Assembly: GCA_024681855.1 (NCBI GenBank)
Contig: JAILAB010000041.1
Location: forward strand, 1 to 46,844
Direction of reading: 5' to 3'
DNA length: 46,844 nt
Origin: Elusimicrobiales bacterium
GTDB lineage: Bacteria > Elusimicrobiota > Elusimicrobia > Elusimicrobiales > UBA9959
In this document: piece by piece, positions 22,314 to 40,789 of the stretch
Layout: the number at the start of each line of letters is the position of its first letter
Numbering within the stretch: the first letter of the stretch is position 1
The notes under the pieces: model-generated
What the model was told of the DNA's origin: nothing
The model's database searches: none
The model's input: only the letters and a program-made list of their open reading frames with translations
Translations under genes and position numbers: made by a program

Positions 22314-22409
22314 AAAATATGACGGCACAACTGTATATAGGAAACTGTGCCGCCGCGGCAGTATCATTTGCATTATAATTTTCATAAAGATAACAGGAGC
22401 GGCCCTACA

Positions 22410-23225
22410 ATGAAAAAAATGATAATCACCTGCGCCGTGTCAGGCGCGGAAACCACCAGAAAACAGCAGCCTGCGCTTCCTATTACACCGGAAGAGATTG
22501 CAGAAGACGCGAGACAGTGCTATGAAGCCGGTGCTTCAATAGTTCATCTTCATGTGCGCAATGATGACGGTACGCCTACATCGGATCTTAAGGTTTTCAA
22601 GAAAACAATGGATCTTATACGCGCCAAAACCGACATGGTCCTTGAACTTACCACAGGCGGCGCTGTAGGGCAGACAGCCGAAGAGCGCATAAAGGTTGTG
22701 AGCCTTGAACCGGAAATGGCCTCGCTTGACTGCGGTACGATTAATTTTGGCAATGACTATATTATAAATTCCCTGCCGGATCTCCGCATGTTTGCTTCCG
22801 AGTTTGCGAAGTATAAAGTGCGCCCCACCCTGGAGTGCATGGATATTTCCCATGTGCAGACTTCGCGTATGCTTATTAAGGAAGGGCTTATAAAACCTCC
22901 GTTCTACTATGGCCTCGGCCTTGGCATTCCCGGTGCGCTTGACTGCTCCATAAGAAGCATGGCAAATTTTGTTGCGGAGCTTCCTCCCGATGCATATTTC
23001 ACTTTCATAGGCATAGGCGGAAAGAATCATCTGCCATCTATTTATTCTTCCGTAGCTCACGGCGGTTTTATACGCGTAGGCTTTGAGGATAATATTTATT
23101 ATTCCAAAGGCAGACTTGCGAAATCCAATGCAGAGCTTGTTGAAAGAGCCGTACGCATAGCGCATGAGTTCGGCTATGAGATAGCGAAGCCGTCTGATGT
23201 AAGGGAAATGTTCCAGCTCAGATAA
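22410..23225 (+). CDS. kce: 3-keto-5-aminohexanoate cleavage enzyme
   Basis: A 271-residue BKACE-family enzyme. In lysine fermentation Kce condenses 3-keto-5-aminohexanoate with acetyl-CoA to give acetoacetate and 3-aminobutyryl-CoA. Visible family features are the start KKMIITCAVSGAE, the metal-binding VHLHVR, ELTTGGAVGQTAEER, SLDCGTINFG, TLECMDISH and IGIGGKNHLP. ATG 22410 has a CAGGAG ribosome site and gives the usual length; the upstream frame to 22347 is probably untranslated. kdd follows 60 bp later. BKACE members vary in substrate, so the neighbour genes are the main support for the lysine role. Confidence 0.9.
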   Translation: MKKMIITCAVSGAETTRKQQPALPITPEEIAEDARQCYEAGASIVHLHVRNDDGTPTSDLKVFKKTMDLIRAKTDMVLELTTGGAVGQTAEERIKVVSLEPEMASLDCGTINFGNDYIINSLPDLRMFASEFAKYKVRPTLECMDISHVQTSRMLIKEGLIKPPFYYGLGLGIPGALDCSIRSMANFVAELPPDAYFTFIGIGGKNHLPSIYSSVAHGGFIRVGFEDNIYYSKGRLAKSNAELVERAVRIAHEFGYEIAKPSDVREMFQLR

Positions 23226-23285
23226 AGGCAGCTTTAGCAGAATAAACTGAAAAAAATTTTATTGAATTTTACTAAGGAGAAATAC

Positions 23286-24344
23286 ATGAGCGAAATAATT
23301 GAGAAACCCAATGGAAACCCTTTCGGCACACACCGTGTGATAGAGCCTAAAGGTGTTCTTCCGCAACCTGCGCTTAAAGTGTGCAATGACATGGATTCCA
23401 TCTATGACAATGAAATACTTGTAGATGTTGAAACCCTGAACATTGACTCTGCCAGTTTTACGCAGATTAAAAAGGCCTGCGACAATGACGAAGAGAAAAT
23501 AAAGGCCATGATAATGCAGATTGTCGGCGAGCGCGGCAAAATGCAGAATCCTGTTACCGGCAGCGGCGGAATGTTCCGCGGCAAAGTTATAAAAATCGGC
23601 AGTAAGCTTAAAGGAAAAATAAAACTGCAGGAAGGCGATAAAATCGCGAGCCTCGTTTCGCTTTCGCTCACACCTCTGAAGATTGAAAAAATCATTGGCA
23701 TTAAGCCAGGCACCGAGCAGGTGAATGTGCAGGCCAAGGCCATAATATTTGAAAGCGGCATTTACGCAAAACTGCCGGAAGATATGCCTGAAACGCTTGC
23801 CCTGGCAGTTCTTGACGTGGCCGGCGCTCCTGCGCAGACTGCGAAACTGGTACGGCCCGGAGATACTGTAGTTATTATGGGCGCAGCCGGAAAATCCGGT
23901 GTGCTCTGCTCATACGAGGCCAGACGCCGCGCCGGCGTTGGCGGAAAGATTATAGGCATAACCAGTTCTGACAGAGGCCTTGCCGCCATGAAGGATTACG
24001 GCTTCTGCCATGAATGCCTGAAACTCAGCGCTACAGATGCTGTCGCCTGCTATGAAAAAATCAAGGAAGTTACCGGCGGTAAAATGGCGGATGTTGTTAT
24101 CAACTGCGTCAACATTCCGAATACGGAAATGGCTTCAATTCTTATGACACGCGACCGTGGAACTGTATATTTCTTCACAATGGCTACATCATTTACAAAA
24201 GCCGCCCTCGGAGCCGAAGGCTGTGGCCGCGACGTGGATATGATAATAGGCAATGGCTATTGCAAAGACCATGCCGAGGTAACACTCAATATTCTGCGCG
24301 AATCAGAAAAGATACGCAAGATATATCAGGAAAAATACGCGTAA
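23286..24344 (+). CDS. kdd: L-erythro-3,5-diaminohexanoate dehydrogenase
   Basis: A 352-residue NAD(P)-dependent dehydrogenase that deaminates 3,5-diaminohexanoate to 3-keto-5-aminohexanoate, the substrate of the preceding gene. It has a GroES-like N-terminal domain (GTHRVIEPKGVLPQPA) and a Rossmann domain with VVIMGAAGKSGVLCSYEARR. The family's Cys-rich stretch (GFCHECLKLSA) and DVVINCVNIPNTE follow. ATG 23286 with AAGGAG is preferred over the upstream ATG 23262. It forms an operon with kce and ends at a strong terminator. Confidence 0.92.
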   Translation: MSEIIEKPNGNPFGTHRVIEPKGVLPQPALKVCNDMDSIYDNEILVDVETLNIDSASFTQIKKACDNDEEKIKAMIMQIVGERGKMQNPVTGSGGMFRGKVIKIGSKLKGKIKLQEGDKIASLVSLSLTPLKIEKIIGIKPGTEQVNVQAKAIIFESGIYAKLPEDMPETLALAVLDVAGAPAQTAKLVRPGDTVVIMGAAGKSGVLCSYEARRRAGVGGKIIGITSSDRGLAAMKDYGFCHECLKLSATDAVACYEKIKEVTGGKMADVVINCVNIPNTEMASILMTRDRGTVYFFTMATSFTKAALGAEGCGRDVDMIIGNGYCKDHAEVTLNILRESEKIRKIYQEKYA

Positions 24345-24365
24345 ACTGAAGTGTTCTGAATAATT

Positions 24366-24400
24366 AAAAAACGCTTCCGATAATAAGGAAGCGTTTTTTT
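24366..24400 (+). terminator. rho-independent terminator of kce-kdd
   Basis: ACGCTTCC pairs with GGAAGCGT around an eight-base loop, flanked by A-run and T-run that extend the stem (AAAAA/TTTTT). Confidence 0.9.
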
Positions 24401-24639
24401 ATATACCCGGTATTCCGGCACTCTGCTCATTTGCAGGAACAAACATGGCAGATTCAGCAGAATTTTTAATTGCATCTTTTATTTGGGCGGGTGTTTTATA
24501 TCTGCGATTGCTATACTAAGCGCATTTTCTTTTTTTATGCTAAAATAAATTTAACTCTGTATAAGAAGAGTTTTTTGCTTTCAACTTTATACAGAACCAT
24601 AAATTTATCGGTCGTAATTTTTTATTACAGGAGCTTTTC
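24401..24639 (+). other. kamA leader region, no recognised element
   Basis: About 240 bp between the kdd terminator and kamA. It contains only short AT-rich boxes (TATAAG at 24560-24565 is the best -10 candidate) and a small CCGG-TATT-CCGG hairpin. I looked for a lysine riboswitch outline and did not see one. Confidence 0.3.
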
Positions 24640-25917
24640 ATGCGCGAATACAAGAAAGTTGATTATAAAAAAATACCTTTGTGGAAGGATGTTCCCGAGA
24701 AAGACTGGTACGATTACAAATGGCAGCTTGCCCATGTTATACGCGATATAAAAACACTTGAGAAAGTGGCCGTCATAACATCACAGGAAAAGAAAGAACT
24801 TCAGGCCTGTCTGAAAAAATTCACAATGGCCATAACTCCGTATTATGCCGCTCTTATGGACAAAAAAGACAAGAGCTGCCCCGTGCGTCTTCAGGCCATT
24901 CCGCGCGCAGATGAACTCCAGGACGATCCTTCGGATCTGGCTGACCCTCTTCATGAAGATGTTGACTCGCCTGTTCCGGGGCTTACCCACAGATATCCGG
25001 ACCGTGTGCTTCTGCTGGTTACAAATATGTGTTCCATGAACTGCCGCCACTGCACGCGCCGCCGCCTTGTGGGCCATACCGATGTGCACATGCCTAAGGA
25101 ACAGATAGACAAGGCCATAGAATACATTGAGAAGAGCAAAGAAGTGCGCGACGTGCTTATTTCCGGCGGAGACCCGTTCACCCTGCCTGATGAAATGCTG
25201 GAAGGCATAATAAAGCGCCTTAGAGCCATTGACCATGTGGAGATAATCCGCATTGGCACCCGCACGCCAGTTGTAATGCCCATGCGCATAACAGACAGCC
25301 TTGTGAATATGCTGAAGAAGTATCATCCTGTATATGTGAACACTCATTTCAATCATCCAAAAGAAATGACAGCTGAGGCTTATGAGGCCTGCCGCAAGCT
25401 GGCAGATGCCGGCATACCGCTTGGCAATCAGAGCGTGCTGCTGCGCGGTGTAAATGACTGCCCGCAGACCATGAAGCGCCTCATGCATGAGCTGCTTATG
25501 GCCAGGGTAAAACCGTATTATATTTATCAGTGCGACCTTTCCAAGGGCATAAGCCATTTCCGCACGCCTGTTTCAAAAGGCATAGAAATAATAGAGAATC
25601 TGCGCGGCCATACCACCGGCATGGCAGTGCCAACATTTGTTATTGATGCGCCCGGCGGCGGAGGGAAAACTCCTGTTATGCCTACTTATGTGATTTCACA
25701 GAATGAGCACCGCGTGGTACTGCGCAATTATGAAGGTGTTATAACCACGTATACGGAGCCACTGAAATATGAGCATGAATGCGCCAGCAACTGCACATTC
25801 TGCCAGTCTGAAAGCTACAAGCCTATGGACGGCGTAGCCAAGCTGCTGAATGGAGAGCGTCTTACCATGGAGCCGGCGAATCTCATGCGTACTAAGAGAA
25901 ATCACAAGAACAAATAA
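24640..25917 (+). CDS. kamA: L-lysine 2,3-aminomutase
   Basis: A 425-residue radical-SAM, PLP-dependent enzyme that converts L-lysine to L-beta-lysine, the first step of lysine fermentation. The SAM cluster motif is CSMNCRHC (CxxxCxxC). PLP-binding Lys lies in [13 protein letters not shown], and the two Asp that hold the lysine side-chain amine in the clostridial enzyme are present (YQCDLSKG and VIDAPGG), arguing against glutamate 2,3-aminomutase. Upstream, [18 protein letters not shown] is typical KamA. A CAGGAG ribosome site precedes the ATG. It has its own leader and terminator next to kce-kdd. beta-Lysine 5,6-aminomutase (kamDE) is not found in this window. Confidence 0.94.
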
Positions 25918-25943: not shown

Positions 25944-25973
25944 AAAGCGGCGGACTAAGTTCCGCCGCTTTTT
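25944..25973 (+). terminator. rho-independent terminator of kamA
   Basis: AAAGCGGCGGA pairs with TCCGCCGCTTT (11 bp) around CTAAGT and runs into TTTA. Confidence 0.9.
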
Positions 25974-25982
25974 ATATTTCCA

Positions 25983-26134: not shown

Positions 26135-26176
26135 GGCGGGGGAATATTTGTATTCTTGACTAAGGCGGGGGAATAT
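26135..26176 (+). repeat. 13-nt direct repeat at the autotransporter start
   Basis: GGCGGGGGAATAT occurs at 26135-26147 and 26164-26176, 29 bp apart, on either side of the upstream TTG candidate start. It could be a duplicated ribosome-binding or regulator element, or the scar of a small duplication. Confidence 0.6.
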
Positions 26177-26209
26177 GTCCCTGCGCTAACCAACAAGCTG
26201 GATAAATTT

Positions 26210-29200
26210 ATGAAAAACAAAAAAACTGCCGGAAACTATCAGTCCTCAATAGTATTGTGCCAACCGTCATGCGGATATTATTTTAGCAGCGGCTTAGTGG
26301 TAAGCGAAACAGTATACAGCAGTGCGGAACACGGCGCAATATACAATGCCGCCAGCCGAGTGATAATAGACGGGGGCAGAAAAGTGCTGCAGACTGCCGC
26401 TCTGGGGGGTATGCTTGCGCAGAATTTCACGTTGCCTGCTTATGCCGGGAACAGTAGCGGTGTGTTAGTATTTTCAGGACAGAGCCGCACTGTATCTGCT
26501 GGAGACACTTGGACTTCCACAACAATATACTTTGATGGAAGGTTGCAGGTTAGCAGCGGTGGTACAGCTAACAGCACAATTGTAGACAGTGGCGGTTATT
26601 TGCGGATTTCCAGTGGCGGCAGAGCTCTAAATATATCCCAGGCAATAGGAGGAGTGCTAAGCGCTAATGTAAAGGGCGGAGATACACAAACATTAGTTAG
26701 CGGGATAAATGAAAACGGAGCATTTAGCTTGTCCGGAGGCATTGCAAGCAACTTTGTTTTGTATAAAGACGGACATTTATATCTTAGCAGCGGTGGCATA
26801 GCTAACAACACAACAGTAAACAGTGGCGGAAAATTGTGGATTTACTACGATGGTGGCACGGCGAATAGCACAGAGGTAAACGATAGAGGAATTTTTTGTA
26901 TTTACTATGGCGGCACAGCTAACAGTACGACAGTAAACAGTGGCGGAATTTTGGAAGTTTATGGAACAGCTAACAGCACAACGGTAAATAGTTACGGAAG
27001 TTTGTTTGTTCTCGGTGCTGGTGCTACAACTAACGGCACAACAGTAAACAGCGGCGGAATTTTTATTGTTTCCAATGACGGTACGGTAAATAGCACAACA
27101 GTAAACAGTGACGGATATTTTGGTGTTTACAGCGGAGTAGCTAACAGCACAAGAGTAAATAGTGCTGGAGTATTATCAGTAGAATCTGGCGGCAGCGCAA
27201 TAAACATAATACAGGAAATCGGCGGAGTCCTTTCTGTGGACGTCACAGGAACAACTTATATCACAGGCACGAACCAGTACGGGCTGAGTTTCAGCCTGGT
27301 AAGCGGTATTGCGTCTAATTTCGTAATAAATTCATACGGTGGTTATATAGGCATAGACAGCGGAGGCAAGGCATACAGAACCATTGTCAATATTGAAGGA
27401 GAGGAGAATGTGTATTCCAGTGGCAGCGCAATATCAACGGTGGTAAATCCCGGTGGCTTGCAATATATAGAAGATGGCGGTACGGCCATCAATACAATAA
27501 TCAACTCAAACGGCAGCCAGGTAATATTAAGCGGAGGGCTTTCAATATCCGCAACAATAAATTCTGGCGGTAAACAGTATATAGAATCAGCCGGTGTCGC
27601 AAGCGATACAACAATTAATGTTGGCGGATGGCAGTATATTTCTGCCGGAGGCTCTGCTGTAAATAATATAGTCGGAAGCGGCGGTTCCATGGTTGTTTAT
27701 AACAGCGGCGTTGTAAGCAACACGGTTGTAGAATCCGGAGGAAGCCAGATAGTCAGCAGCGGCGGCAGCGCCGGCGGCATGATAATAAGCGGCACGCAAT
27801 ATGTAAGCAGCGGAGCAGTTGACACAGCAGCGACAGTAGTTGCTGGCGGCTATCAGAATGTGCTTTCAGGCGGTATTGCAAATAATGCCACATTAATGAT
27901 TGGTGGAAATCAAACCATATCATCAGGCGGATTGGCGAATAATACAGTGATAAATTCATGGGGGTTTCAGACTGTCTGTAACGGCGGCATGGCTAACAGC
28001 ACTACAGTAAACAGTGCTGGAATATTATCAGTAAGTTCTGGCGGCAGTGCAACAAATATAATCCAGCACAGCGGCGGACAGCTTATTTTTGATATTGCCT
28101 CAGGCAACACAACTTATATAACTGGCATAAACGAGAGAGGAAGCAGCTTTAGCGTTATAAATGGCGTTGCCAGCAATGTGATAGTAAACAATAAAGGCGT
28201 TTACCTGCATGATGGAGGTATACTTTACAATTATATAGCTACAAGCAATGGGAACGCCCCGTTCGGAGCTGGCGGCAGCGCAATAAACGTAATACAGGAA
28301 ACTGGCGGAGATGTTTCTGTGGATGTGGGCATAGGATATGACGACAAAGATGACTATATAGGAACAACTTATATCACAGGCACGAACCAGTACGGGCAGA
28401 GTTTCAGCCTTGTAAGCGGTGTTGCTTCAAATTTTGTAATTAACGAACATGGGTATCTTGACATATACAGCGGCGGCAAGGCATACGGCACAATCATAAA
28501 CAGCGGATATTCTGCTGGCCAAAAAGAAGAGCCTGGCATGACTGTATATTCCGGGGGCAGTGCAATATCAACGGTGGTAAAGTCCGGCGGCTCGCAGCTG
28601 ATAGAAGAGGGCGGATATGCGATATATACCACAGTAAGCAGCGGCGGCAAGCAGACAGTAGAATCTGGCGGCATCGCAATAAGCAATTTCATTTATGCAG
28701 GCGGAATACAGAATGTGGAACCAGGCGCGATTGTGCAAAACGCAGTAATATCAGGCGGCGGCTCCAACAGTTCCGGCGCAAGCATACAGGTGGTTTCCAG
28801 CGGGGCAACAGCAAGCAATACAATCATAGGCGCAAATGCCGTGCAGCAGATAAACGATGGCGGCTTGGCAATATCTGCGGTTATAAGCAGCGGCGGGGAA
28901 CAGAACATATTGTCAGGCGGTGGGGCATTAGGCACCGTAATATACAATGGCGGAACGCAGAAGATAGGCAGCAGCGGTTATGCCAGCGGCACTGTAATAA
29001 GCCAGGGCGGAGCAATGGAGCTTGCGTCCGGAGGCTTTGCCGCAGGGCTTACCGTAAAAGGCGGCGGCACCGCCCGCATAAGCGGTACGAATACGCTGTA
29101 CGGCGACAATGAATTGCAAAATGGCGGCAGCATCAGCCTTGTGCGCACAGATGTTTCCGCGCCTGCTGTTTTGACTTTTGAAAATTTATATGGAAACGGC

Positions 29201-31009
29201 ACAATTGACATGGGCATTGACTTTTCCAATCCTGCCGAAAGCGACAAAATTGTAATATCCGGCATTCACAATGGCAATACTGTATTGAACATAAAGACAA
29301 TAAAAGGCGGCAAACCGGTAAATGATGACAGCCTTAAAGTTGTTGACTGTTCCGGCGCTACAGAAACAGGCACATTCAGCCTGAAAGGCGGAAAACTGGA
29401 CACAGGCTGGTATGAATACACTTTGGACAGAGACATTCAGGATTACTATCTGCGCAGCAACGGAGAAATGACCAATGTGGCAAAGACAGCCATAGCGGCC
29501 CCTGCCATGGGCAATGTGTCTATAAATGTGGCATTAAACTCCCTGCAGAAACGTCTTGGCGATTTGCGCACTATGGGCAACGGCAGCGCGCAGCACGGCA
29601 CCTGGGCAAGAGGTTATTACCAGAGCCTTACCCTTAAAGAAAAGATTGAAACGGAGATGAAAATATCGGGCATAGAGGCCGGGTATGACTTCCGCCTTTC
29701 GGAAGAAGGCTCTTATAACGGGGAAGGCACATATCTGGGCATAATGGCCGGAAAGAGCAGTGTTAGCGGCATTGAGGGCAAAGGCAGGACAGGCAGGCAG
29801 GAAAGCAAAGGCGAGGGTGAAGGAGTTCTCGGCGGTGCATACCTTACCTATATTGGCGAAAGCGGATTCTTTGCGGACTTTACAGCAAGGGCAGGCACAA
29901 ATAAGCTGGATCTGTCCGCATATAGTGAAAGCGAGGGCGGCTGGCTACAGTTTAGCCCTGAACGCACATTTATCGCCGCAAGCATGGAAGCCGGAAAGTC
30001 ATTCGGCGGCAGCGGCTGGAAAATAGAGCCCAAAGCCGAAATGCGGTACATGAATATTGGCGGTGCAGATGCGGAAGTAAAAGGACAGCCGGAAAAAATA
30101 AAATTCAGCGGAGCATCATATATTACGGCAATAGGCACATTGAACGCCGCATACTCATGGAAAAGAGCAGACGGCATGATAACTCAGCCTTATGCCGAGG
30201 TTTCATACAGTCAGGAATTAAGCGGGGAGGAAGAAATAAAATATTCCGGGAATATGGACAAATCAAGCATGAAAGGCGGTTTCATAGAGGGGCGCATAGG
30301 AATAAACATGCAGATGTCTGATAACCTGTACTGGCATGCGGCAGCAGGCATTGAAAGCGGCAGCAGGCGCGAGGGTTTCGGCGCGGATGCCGGAATACGC
30401 TATATGTTCGGCGGCCATAAGCAGGCAAAGCGCCAGACTGATAATTACTGGAAGGATAAGGATAAGACTGGGACAAAAGCTGTTTCAGCAGAAAAGAAGG
30501 CAGATGATAAGGCTATAACGGCCTTGCCTGCCAAACCGGCAACGGTTTTATTAAAGGCTGTAAATGCAGAGCCTGGAAATAACGTCGTTACCACAGAAAA
30601 AGAGGAGTATCTTGAGAAGGCAGGCAGGGCGGAAAAAACAATCAGCAAAGAAGTATTAAAAATACCTCCCATGGGCTTGCTGTTTCAAATCGGAAAGATG
30701 GCCATACTTTCTTACTATACGCCAATGCTGGATGCTTTTGCAAAGCTGTATCTGCTTACGGACCAGAGCAGCATAATCTATGTTGAAGGTTTCTCCTCAA
30801 ATGGAGGAAACGAGACAAAAAATAATCCTAACCTGTCAAAGGAACGTGCCATGAATGTTGCTTATTATCTTATGAGCAAAGGAATAAAAGGGAATAAAAT
30901 ACTTGTCAAACCGTATGGAAACAGCAAAATAGGTTCCGGAATGTTTGCCAATGATTCCGGGTGCAGTGGGGGCGGATGTTACAGGCGCGTTAACATCAGC
31001 ATAAAGTAG
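26210..31009 (+). CDS. AIDA-type autotransporter adhesin with C-terminal OmpA-like domain
   Basis: About 1600 residues; residue numbers here count from the TTG at 26156, of which ATG 26210 is residue 19. Residues ~100-1090 are a beta-helix passenger of AIDA-type repeats (NSTTVNSGG, SSGGSA and variants every ~19-20 residues). Residues ~1145-1418 are an autotransporter beta-barrel starting HGTWARGYYQS and ending ADAGIRYMF, a normal barrel terminus. A Lys/Ala linker and an OmpA-like domain (~1509-1617: IIYVEGFSSNGG, LSKERAMNVAYYLM, CYRRVNISI) follow, which is unusual. No ordinary signal peptide is at either start; a signal-like stretch RKVLQTAALGGMLAQ ending in PAYA lies at residues 75-97. ATG 26210 has only a weak GGA upstream. 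A heptosyltransferase follows 31 bp later and is expected to glycosylate the passenger. Confidence 0.88.
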   Translation: MKNKKTAGNYQSSIVLCQPSCGYYFSSGLVVSETVYSSAEHGAIYNAASRVIIDGGRKVLQTAALGGMLAQNFTLPAYAGNSSGVLVFSGQSRTVSAGDTWTSTTIYFDGRLQVSSGGTANSTIVDSGGYLRISSGGRALNISQAIGGVLSANVKGGDTQTLVSGINENGAFSLSGGIASNFVLYKDGHLYLSSGGIANNTTVNSGGKLWIYYDGGTANSTEVNDRGIFCIYYGGTANSTTVNSGGILEVYGTANSTTVNSYGSLFVLGAGATTNGTTVNSGGIFIVSNDGTVNSTTVNSDGYFGVYSGVANSTRVNSAGVLSVESGGSAINIIQEIGGVLSVDVTGTTYITGTNQYGLSFSLVSGIASNFVINSYGGYIGIDSGGKAYRTIVNIEGEENVYSSGSAISTVVNPGGLQYIEDGGTAINTIINSNGSQVILSGGLSISATINSGGKQYIESAGVASDTTINVGGWQYISAGGSAVNNIVGSGGSMVVYNSGVVSNTVVESGGSQIVSSGGSAGGMIISGTQYVSSGAVDTAATVVAGGYQNVLSGGIANNATLMIGGNQTISSGGLANNTVINSWGFQTVCNGGMANSTTVNSAGILSVSSGGSATNIIQHSGGQLIFDIASGNTTYITGINERGSSFSVINGVASNVIVNNKGVYLHDGGILYNYIATSNGNAPFGAGGSAINVIQETGGDVSVDVGIGYDDKDDYIGTTYITGTNQYGQSFSLVSGVASNFVINEHGYLDIYSGGKAYGTIINSGYSAGQKEEPGMTVYSGGSAISTVVKSGGSQLIEEGGYAIYTTVSSGGKQTVESGGIAISNFIYAGGIQNVEPGAIVQNAVISGGGSNSSGASIQVVSSGATASNTIIGANAVQQINDGGLAISAVISSGGEQNILSGGGALGTVIYNGGTQKIGSSGYASGTVISQGGAMELASGGFAAGLTVKGGGTARISGTNTLYGDNELQNGGSISLVRTDVSAPAVLTFENLYGNGTIDMGIDFSNPAESDKIVISGIHNGNTVLNIKTIKGGKPVNDDSLKVVDCSGATETGTFSLKGGKLDTGWYEYTLDRDIQDYYLRSNGEMTNVAKTAIAAPAMGNVSINVALNSLQKRLGDLRTMGNGSAQHGTWARGYYQSLTLKEKIETEMKISGIEAGYDFRLSEEGSYNGEGTYLGIMAGKSSVSGIEGKGRTGRQESKGEGEGVLGGAYLTYIGESGFFADFTARAGTNKLDLSAYSESEGGWLQFSPERTFIAASMEAGKSFGGSGWKIEPKAEMRYMNIGGADAEVKGQPEKIKFSGASYITAIGTLNAAYSWKRADGMITQPYAEVSYSQELSGEEEIKYSGNMDKSSMKGGFIEGRIGINMQMSDNLYWHAAAGIESGSRREGFGADAGIRYMFGGHKQAKRQTDNYWKDKDKTGTKAVSAEKKADDKAITALPAKPATVLLKAVNAEPGNNVVTTEKEEYLEKAGRAEKTISKEVLKIPPMGLLFQIGKMAILSYYTPMLDAFAKLYLLTDQSSIIYVEGFSSNGGNETKNNPNLSKERAMNVAYYLMSKGIKGNKILVKPYGNSKIGSGMFANDSGCSGGGCYRRVNISIK

Positions 31010-31040
31010 TTTGGCATTTTAAGATTCGCAGGTGAAAATT

Positions 31041-32489
31041 ATGGAAAACAGCAATTCCAATAACAATAATCAGCAGTTTCAGAATCAGACAGCGCAGGGC
31101 CAGCAGCCGGTTCAGTCTAGTGTTCAAAATACACAGCCGCAGCAGATGCAGCAGCAAAACCAGCAGGCTCAGCAGTCTAATGGCAGCCAGCAGGGTGTTG
31201 CCACGGCAAATTCCCAGGCTGTCAGGCCCGGTGATGTTACTGCGGCAGGGAACACATCTGTAAGGCCGGGGGTGCCATACAACCCTTTTCTTGTGCCTGT
31301 CCCGCCTGTGCCGACACAGGAAGGCCCTATGGGCATAAAGTATGACTTCAACGATGGCGCACGCGTGCTTTTGCCAAAAGGCAGATGGCATGTGCAGCTT
31401 GAAGATGCGGAAAGCGACAATATAATTTTTGCCTGCGACACTGCGGAAGGGTGGGTGCTTTCCACAAAAAAGTATTATGTGAAGTTCCGCATAAAAGTAT
31501 GGATAATAGGCGAAACAGAACCAGTCCTGAATCATACTCTTGATTTAAAAAACAGATATGTGCAGATTAATTTTCCTGTAGGCACAATAGGTGATATTGT
31601 AGGCTGGATGACTTATGCCGTGCGTTTTGCGGAAAAGCATAAATGTGCAACGGAATTTACAATGTCAAAACAGCTTTCCGAGGTTTTTGCGGAACAATAT
31701 CCCGGCATAATATTTACACCTCTGCCGGATGGCAAGCCTAAATTTCAGAAACCGTATGCCACATACAGAATGGGACTGTTCTTCCGCGGAGACACAACAT
31801 GCCAGCCTATAGACTTCCGGCAAGTGGGACTGCACCGCACGGCAGGGTATATACTCGGCGTTGATCCGAGGGAGGAAGCGCCTAAAGTCAAGCTGGGAAA
31901 TCCAAGAACCATAAAAGAACGCTATGTGGTGATAGCGACGAAATCAAGCAGCCAGGCCAAATACTGGAATAACGGTGGCGGATGGGAACAGGTTGTGGGC
32001 TATCTTAAATCCATTGGCTACCGTGTGCTCTGCATAGACCGGGATGCCGTAACCGGATTTGGTTTTGTATGGAACAGAATGCCTCACGATGCCGAAGATT
32101 TTACCGGGAACCGCCCGCTTCAGGAACGTATTGCCCTAATGGAACATGCGGATTTCTTTGTGGGCCTGTCTTCCGGCCTGAGCTGGCTGGCGTGGTGCGC
32201 AAAACGTCCCGTGGTGCTTATAAGCGGCTTTACATTGCCAATATGCGAGTATTATACGCCATACAGGGTTTATAGCAGCCATGGCTGCATGGGGTGCTGG
32301 GATAATGTAAACGAAAATTTTGACCACTATGATTTTTTCTGGTGTCCTAAGCATAAAAATACGGACAGGCAGTATGAGTGCACGCGCTTAATAACGGGGA
32401 AACAGGTTATAGGCCATATAAACCGGCTCATGAAAGACAATAATCTTATGCGTCCGTCAGACGGCAGGCCTGTGGATGCCCCCGTGTAA
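31041..32489 (+). CDS. autotransporter strand-loop-strand O-heptosyltransferase
   Basis: A 482-residue cytoplasmic glycosyltransferase of the TibC/Aah/BAHT type, which adds ADP-linked heptose to Ser/Thr in autotransporter repeats before secretion. The C-terminal half shows the GT-like elements KSSSQAKYWN, GWEQVVGYLKSIGYRVLCID, HADFFVGLSSGLSWLAW and PVVLISGFT. The family's four-Cys iron site follows: Cys416 and Cys419 in SSHGCMGCWDN, Cys435 in FWCPKHK, Cys447 in YECTRL. The first ~75 residues are an extreme Gln/Asn-rich low-complexity tail not needed by the family. ATG 31041 has an AGGTGA ribosome site; GTG 31032 is less likely. It is coupled to the autotransporter, and hldD of the donor pathway is in the window. 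Confidence 0.9.
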   Translation: MENSNSNNNNQQFQNQTAQGQQPVQSSVQNTQPQQMQQQNQQAQQSNGSQQGVATANSQAVRPGDVTAAGNTSVRPGVPYNPFLVPVPPVPTQEGPMGIKYDFNDGARVLLPKGRWHVQLEDAESDNIIFACDTAEGWVLSTKKYYVKFRIKVWIIGETEPVLNHTLDLKNRYVQINFPVGTIGDIVGWMTYAVRFAEKHKCATEFTMSKQLSEVFAEQYPGIIFTPLPDGKPKFQKPYATYRMGLFFRGDTTCQPIDFRQVGLHRTAGYILGVDPREEAPKVKLGNPRTIKERYVVIATKSSSQAKYWNNGGGWEQVVGYLKSIGYRVLCIDRDAVTGFGFVWNRMPHDAEDFTGNRPLQERIALMEHADFFVGLSSGLSWLAWCAKRPVVLISGFTLPICEYYTPYRVYSSHGCMGCWDNVNENFDHYDFFWCPKHKNTDRQYECTRLITGKQVIGHINRLMKDNNLMRPSDGRPVDAPV

Positions 32490-39409: not shown

Positions 39410-40789
39410 ATGGAAGAATCTGGGGAAAATGTATTTAGCAATAATGCTGGCGCCATGCCATCAGGCATTTCCCCTAATATTTCTATTCCAGAGGCTCTTC
39501 CTGAATATGATTTCCCTTTAGATGATGTTCAGCAGAAGATATTTGACATTCTGGAGAATACCTCAAGGAATGTTTTTCTGCAAGGCCGCGCTGGTACTGG
39601 CAAGACGACTTTTGTGCAATATTTGCGCCGTCATTCAAAAAAAAGAATAAGAATTGCATGCCCTACTGCGGCAGCTGCTGTTAATCTGGGGGCTGTTACT
39701 CTTCATTCGCTTTACAGGCTTCCATTAAGTGATTTTTTTATTTTTGAAGATTTGATGGCTGTGCCCAGGAAAAAACTGAAAAGCATTTTAAGCCGCACTG
39801 ACATGCTTGTCATAGACGAAGTGTCAATGGTCAGGCCTGATATGCTGGACGCTGTTGACCTGCTATCGCGCGAAGCTAGGGGAAATCATCTTCAGCCCTT
39901 CGGCGGACTTCAGGTTCTGCTTGTAGGAGATCTTGCGCAGCTGCCTCCGGTAATAAAACAGAATGCGTACGAGGTTTTCAATGAGAAATACGGTAGCCGC
40001 CAGCCTTATTTTTTTCATGCCTATGTATATTCGGAGGCGGATTTTCAGCATGCGGAGCTTGAGAAGGTTTACAGGCAGAATGACATTGAGCTGCTTGATA
40101 AACTGGCCTGTCTCAGGGAAAACCGGAATATTAGCGAAGCCGTGAATTATTTCAATGAATGCGGGCCTGCTGACAGGGATTTCCTTAAAACCGCTGTTAC
40201 GCTTACGCCGTACAGGCGCATTGCGGATGCCTTAAATGCCAGGCGGCTTTCAGAGATAAAGTCCCCGGCTGTGGATTATAAATGCACAGCAACAGGCACA
40301 TTTGAAACATCTCAGGAATGCCCTGCGCCGAGAATTTTATCGCTTAAGCCTGGAGCGCTTGTTATTTTCAACCGCAATAATCCGGGCTGCTGGATTAATG
40401 GCACTGCCGGCATAGTTCGCATGCTTGCTCCAGATTTTATAGAAACAGAAATAATCAGCTCCGGCCATAAGGCAATCGTGCGCCAAGAAGAATGGAAAAG
40501 CTACCGCTATGATTTTGACAGGCTTACTGGCCGCGTTTACGAGGAAGAAACAGGCTCATTTGTGCAGTTCCCGCTTCAGCTGGGCTATGCGCTTACCATA
40601 CATAAGGCACAAGGTAAAACTTTGGACAAGGCCGTGATTGATATGAATCACGGAGCGTTTGCCCATGGCCAGCTTTATGTGGCTTTAAGCCGCACCAGGC
40701 ATAAGGAAGACATTCGCATTATGGGCCGCATAACAGAAGATGATGTGATAACGGATCCCGCGGTTCAAGAGTTTCTGCGCAGAAAATAA
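39410..40789 (+). CDS. Pif1/RecD-like superfamily 1B helicase
   Basis: A 459-residue ATP-dependent 5'-3' DNA helicase. Motifs are GRAGTGKTTFVQ (Walker A), ACPTAAAAVNLGAVTLHSLY, DMLVIDEVSMVRPDM (Walker B), GDLAQLPPV, LEKVYRQND, LTPYRRIADALN, ALTIHKAQGKT and LYVALSRTRH. These are the ordered SF1B motifs of Pif1-type proteins without RecD's N-terminal domain. Pif1-like helicases unwind G-quadruplex and R-loop structures; bacterial members are widespread and mostly uncharacterised. No good ribosome site precedes the ATG. The gene is separated by 185 bp from PspC and faces the symporter gene. Confidence 0.88.
   Translation: MEESGENVFSNNAGAMPSGISPNISIPEALPEYDFPLDDVQQKIFDILENTSRNVFLQGRAGTGKTTFVQYLRRHSKKRIRIACPTAAAAVNLGAVTLHSLYRLPLSDFFIFEDLMAVPRKKLKSILSRTDMLVIDEVSMVRPDMLDAVDLLSREARGNHLQPFGGLQVLLVGDLAQLPPVIKQNAYEVFNEKYGSRQPYFFHAYVYSEADFQHAELEKVYRQNDIELLDKLACLRENRNISEAVNYFNECGPADRDFLKTAVTLTPYRRIADALNARRLSEIKSPAVDYKCTATGTFETSQECPAPRILSLKPGALVIFNRNNPGCWINGTAGIVRMLAPDFIETEIISSGHKAIVRQEEWKSYRYDFDRLTGRVYEEETGSFVQFPLQLGYALTIHKAQGKTLDKAVIDMNHGAFAHGQLYVALSRTRHKEDIRIMGRITEDDVITDPAVQEFLRRK

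Follow-up and report, generated by a model that had tools for sequence, protein, structure and literature searches.

The window (the whole stretch of DNA that we analyzed, 46,844 nt) carries on its + strand a gene for an autotransporter adhesin (26210..31009, ATG to stop) and, downstream, a gene for an autotransporter O-heptosyltransferase of the Aah/TibC family (31032..32489, +). The adhesin lies within a single open frame, 26156-31009, which encodes 1617 aa when counted from its earliest possible start, a TTG at 26156, and whose first stop is at 31007-31009. Since relatives' proteins open at the Met equivalent to the ATG at 26210 in an alignment, we take this ATG to be the better start, and the adhesin is probably 1599 residues long; the residue numbers given for the barrel, linker and OmpA-like domain nevertheless run from the TTG. 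From the N-terminus, the frame encodes an extended, putative signal region and an AIDA-type repeat passenger; these are followed by a 12-strand barrel, a Lys/Ala-rich linker of ~90 residues and, last, an OmpA-like domain. Upstream, three lysine-fermentation genes lie in a row (22347-25917), encoding a 3-keto-5-aminohexanoate cleavage enzyme, 3,5-diaminohexanoate dehydrogenase and lysine 2,3-aminomutase, and between these and the adhesin gene a hairpin followed by a T-rich run (AGCGGCGGA CTAAGT TCCGCCGCT TTTTATATTT; 25946..25980, +) was read by eye and is absent from the hairpin scan's list; it is a possible terminator of the upstream gene. Those relatives that carry a name are MAGs from Elusimicrobiaceae, Elusimicrobium and Elusimicrobia, with rumen or rectum in many of the labels, and the host is a gut-type Elusimicrobiota bacterium.

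The N-terminus of the adhesin is extended by ~79 aa (26210..26446, +) and closes with a signal-peptide-like stretch (GGRKVLQTAALGGMLAQNFTLPAYA) with a putative cleavage site; this arrangement is kept in eight proteins from relatives. The residues ahead of the signal-like stretch, ENIYSSxxVQALEQxYCSSCSAAVVSSC...SRIYNGGRxAxYTATxGAML, were seen in the window and in L072, L073, L075, L076, L077, L082 and L083, and may constitute a lineage-specific extended signal peptide. The passenger that follows (26447..29164, +) is made of AIDA and strand-loop-strand O-heptosylation repeats, with PF16168 matching in 16 stretches (E 4e-76) and TIGR04415 in 19 stretches (355.6 bits, E 7e-109), and leads into a pertactin-like end of the passenger stalk (aa 1004-1093; 29165..29434, +; PF03212, 40.1 bits against a cut-off of 22). 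As in type Va autotransporters, the passenger thus is of the repetitive beta-solenoid type and N-terminal to the barrel.

The heptosyltransferase was assigned by TIGR04414 (568.5 bits, cut-off 200) and PF21129, and its true start may be the Met at 31041. Heptosylation repeats and the cognate Aah/TibC enzyme occur together at this locus, the combination that marks O-heptosylated self-associating autotransporters, and homologues of the enzyme directly adjoin the autotransporters of many relatives, whether or not these are fused to an OmpA domain. Because the gene, from the family that modifies AIDA and TibA, begins only 22 bases past the adhesin stop, the adhesin is probably O-heptosylated. The enzyme was also noted elsewhere: in a prophage-like region of G012 contig 34, an AIDA-like repeat protein is immediately followed by an autotransporter-type heptosyltransferase (L171:9015-11814), and in G001, a genome of the same genus, a heptosyltransferase gene has no neighbouring autotransporter (L170:9222-10646). 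The AIDA repeats, the strand-loop-strand O-heptosylation repeats, the adjacent heptosyltransferase and the 12-strand barrel are all shared with AIDA-I, TibA and Ag43 and their Aah/TibC enzymes; the window adhesin differs in its ~79-aa N-terminus and in adding a linker and an OmpA-like domain. To our knowledge, the known E. coli members of this group end at the barrel.

The barrel (aa 1147-1418; 29594..30409, +) was recognized by PF03797 (29603-30343, E 5.5e-23) and TIGR01414 (aa 1007-1418, E 2.8e-44). An AlphaFold2 model built from a 14-sequence alignment has 12 long strands across aa 1147-1418, with most blocks at pLDDT 80-96, and in Foldseek this model matched the barrels of the autotransporters BrkA and EspP (best E 1.1e-16, TM to target 0.88). 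The adhesin therefore has the monomeric 12-strand PF03797/TIGR01414 barrel of type Va, the C-terminus of which is expected to face the periplasm. The chain runs on for 199 residues beyond the barrel, so that it departs from type Va in not ending at the last barrel strand, a trait that is usual for the type rather than strictly defining.

These residues comprise the linker (aa 1419-1508; 30410..30679, +), which contains 18 K/R and 13 D/E and is predicted to be disordered, and the OmpA-like domain (aa 1509-1617; 30680..31006, +). PF00691 matched aa 1510-1591 at 39.2 bits against a curated cut-off of 27.2 (E 9.2e-10), and the best sequence match of the domain in the PDB is E. coli Pal (E 1.9e-5). 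AlphaFold2 gave the domain a beta-alpha-beta-alpha-beta-beta order with moderate confidence (mean pLDDT 71 for the domain alone), and a fold search with the isolated domain returned Pal, OmpA and YiaD among the best matches, with probabilities of 0.96-1.00 and modest E values of ~0.008-0.04. The earlier note had claimed a barrel at ~1145-1418 continuing in one chain into an OmpA-like domain at ~1509-1617; the uninterrupted frame and the domain profiles above curated cut-offs bear this out, the residue ranges, including that of the linker, are correct, and the structure prediction it called for yielded the barrel, the disordered linker and the OmpA-like fold. Within the OmpA-like domain, we also observed the sequence CSGGGC (30962-30979) immediately before YRRV, at what we take to be near the position of the disulfide loop of E. 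coli OmpA; it may form a disulfide.

To look for the same architecture elsewhere, as the earlier note had also proposed, we searched a barrel-only profile over 341 Elusimicrobiota genomes and obtained matches in 41; an earlier search of the genome contigs with a single sequence had given no match, and it was the alignment-based search that found the relatives. The order barrel then OmpA recurs in 13 genomes from three families (G000, G066, G071, G082, G148, G149, G153, G156, G290, G291, G293, G294 and G300). Of the distinct barrels, 45 had sufficient length to be placed in a tree, and an OmpA domain follows 19 of these; two further fused proteins fall outside the tree, one at a contig end (L068/L085) and one in which the barrel was detected by Pfam only (L076:9357-13475). 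In a Pfam scan of relatives, PF03797 and PF00691 were both above cut-off in 7 of 8 proteins, the eighth (L162) giving only OmpA.

This recurrence bears on whether the join in the window could be an artefact of a frameshift, or of an assembly or binning error. The assembly is a fragmented draft (81 contigs, ~90% complete), and the barrel-profile search found the barrel in no other listed genome of the window's own family. Against this, the same order is present in 12 other genomes, one of which has two copies in tandem, and the linker contains neither a signal peptide nor a lipobox. In addition, the window gene at 39410-40789 is 75% identical to its counterpart in the same-genus genome G001 across the matched part, which makes it most likely that the contig was binned correctly. 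We therefore regard an artefact as extremely improbable. A frameshift, which the earlier note had named among the findings that would refute its reading, or an assembly join of two genes is ruled out by the same domain order in independent genomes, and a separate OmpA gene beginning within the adhesin frame is ruled out by the features of the linker. The absence of the barrel from the other listed genomes of the family suggests instead that the gene may have been acquired horizontally. In a plasmid collection, 234 records matched the barrel-plus-OmpA query, none of them spanning most of it. A search of the open-licence literature for autotransporters of Elusimicrobia or Endomicrobium and for autotransporter-OmpA fusions returned nothing relevant, and a text search of two broad autotransporter papers found mention of neither Elusimicrobia nor such a post-barrel tail; the variant is thus unreported in the open-licence literature searchable here.

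The premise from which the earlier note had started, that autotransporter chains normally end in the last barrel strand, fails in Elusimicrobiota, where tails after the barrel are common: of the 45 barrels, most of those that lack OmpA are followed by a different tail, and in some the chain stops right at the barrel. Autotransporters of this kind can thus generally do without the OmpA domain. Barrels without OmpA often close with long, mostly basic tails, and L067, L075, L079, L082 and L084 share a YSLMEEIE-like end motif, perhaps another periplasmic docking signal. In G293, three autotransporters (L154, L155 and L156) have near-identical barrels and OmpA tails and total lengths of 1248, 1117 and 1085 aa, as though the C-terminus were constant and the passengers variable. 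Another reading is that the tail serves biogenesis rather than anchoring, affecting how the barrel C-terminus is handled during assembly and export, so that any basic or folded tail would suffice. Unrelated tails at the same place, many of them net positive and five with the YSLMEEIE-like end, are in keeping with a role of this kind, but the OmpA domain is found again and again, in most fused copies with its ligand motif intact, and some relatives stop exactly at the barrel; we consider this explanation improbable.

The OmpA module also occurs in a two-gene state. On contig 57 of the same genome as the window (G000), an autotransporter ends at its barrel and a gene for an OmpA lipoprotein with the classic motif follows 60 bases later, and at L076 an OmpA lipoprotein gene (L076:15944-16459) overlaps the end of an autotransporter gene; the OmpA domain of the latter clusters with both fused OmpA domains from its own genome (99/93). 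These adjacent genes indicate that the module exists both as a separate protein and fused. The barrel tree shows at least 8 changes in OmpA presence, and the fused OmpA domains fall in several places, leaving a single ancestral fusion for all cases unsupported.

We then examined the site at which OmpA domains bind diaminopimelate, for which the motif TD(x)7NxxLSxxRA, with Asp2, Asn10 and Arg17 as key residues, has been described (PMC5104382). The window domain departs from this motif: Asp2 is replaced by Ser, and although Asn and Arg are kept, the spacing from Asn to LS is longer by one residue. Two observations in the earlier note, that GFSS stands in place of GHTD and that the Arg of LSxxRA is kept, both proved correct in the alignment; in addition, NRR is replaced by YRR. 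When 78 Elusimicrobiota OmpA domains were compared, the Asp was absent in 8. Tyr in place of the Asn before RR was found in only 4 of the 78 (the window, two in G082 and one in G066), and these four also lack the Asp, which is Ser in the window and Cys in the other three. All four are fused to barrels, in four proteins from three genomes. They group at 89/95 in the domain tree, and at 76/86 after the trait columns and some long rows were removed; the window domain sits on a long branch, and its barrel is not firmly grouped with those of the other three proteins. From these alignments and trees, we favor a common origin of the four domains, short of proof. In the window's genome, 5 of the 7 other OmpA domains have the Asp, so its cell wall presumably still contains diaminopimelate; the change presumably sits in the window protein and not in the wall.

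With the Asp lost, peptidoglycan binding by the window copy could be weak, altered or absent. One reading is that peptidoglycan binding has been lost from the OmpA-like domain in this subfamily, which would leave a relic or a protein-protein module, acting in dimerization or contacting the barrel-assembly machinery or another wall protein. The Asp is gone from all four members along with the Asn-to-Tyr change, the long branch suggests that the window domain may be decaying, and there is a precedent in the Treponema Tp0624 domain, which has Ala at the place of the Asp and for which experiments found no diaminopimelate binding (PMC5104382). Like the window domain, Tp0624 is a divergent OmpA-like domain in which the Arg is kept; it differs in not being attached to a barrel and in having Ala rather than Ser. 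Set against this reading are the retention of the fold core, Asn10 and Arg17 in the window and both G082 copies and, for a relic in particular, a frame that is still open in four proteins from three genomes, something not required of a relic. We judge a loss of binding somewhat unlikely.

Our preferred reading, which we hold to be reasonably probable, is of an AIDA-like, probably O-heptosylated adhesin with a built-in periplasmic anchor akin to AtaA-TpgA, in a subfamily with a changed wall-binding site. The 12-strand barrel would export the repeat passenger of the same chain, to which the enzyme encoded next door probably attaches heptose. Past the last barrel strand, the chain would enter the periplasm and reach the OmpA-like domain by way of the flexible ~90-residue linker. 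There, the domain most likely touches the peptidoglycan layer, where it would retain the long adhesin or aid its assembly, as TpgA does for AtaA. In the window copy and its three relatives, the altered site, with Ser or Cys for the Asp and Tyr for the Asn of NRR, probably binds another part of the wall, or binds weakly. A role as a cell-wall tether is plausible given the position after a barrel that should have its C-terminus on the periplasmic side and the full diaminopimelate motif in most barrel-fused relatives; the latter suggests that the domain originally bound the wall. Counting against this reading are the broken motif together with the Tp0624 precedent, the long branch of the window domain, the modest E values of its fold matches and the relatives without an OmpA domain. 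The interpretation in the earlier note is thus partly supported: the architecture was right, but the wall tether it proposed is weakened in the window copy by the missing Asp.

The nearest functional parallel is in Acinetobacter, in which TpgA, a separate OmpA-domain protein, anchors AtaA to peptidoglycan and is needed for AtaA display (PMC5861075). Both systems pair a barrel-displayed adhesin with an OmpA-like domain that links it, or in the window protein would link it, to peptidoglycan, and in the two-gene form the adhesin and anchor genes are adjacent. They differ in that TpgA is separate and works with a trimeric (type Vc) barrel, whereas the window domain shares its chain with a monomeric (type Va) barrel and has lost the Asp; the profile NF047726 for the TpgA system reached only 18.6 bits against a cut-off of 350. 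Inverse autotransporters also place an adhesin barrel and a periplasmic peptidoglycan-binding module in one chain; in intimin and YeeJ, LysM precedes the barrel and the passenger comes after it, so both order and fold differ from the window adhesin (PMC5595812), which has the reverse of the type Ve order and no LysM profile match. A barrel followed by a C-terminal periplasmic OmpA-like domain is also the plan of OmpA, OprF and Myxococcus TraB, which are not autotransporters and have no exported AIDA-type passenger.

More broadly, it is possible, and we put it forward tentatively, that type V secretion includes an undescribed subclass, made up of the Elusimicrobiota autotransporters, with interchangeable periplasmic tails (OmpA domain, basic or YSLMEEIE-type), in which the OmpA-like domain of the window's subfamily would have been re-tuned to a ligand other than diaminopimelate. 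In our judgement, two questions are open in autotransporter biology: how large adhesins stay in the outer membrane when pulled, and whether assembly requires a free C-terminus on the barrel. Both questions become testable in a family that has repeatedly placed a wall-binding-type domain after the barrel and that also has a two-gene version in the same genomes; the family further offers natural variants of the OmpA-like domain that either keep or lack the diaminopimelate Asp.
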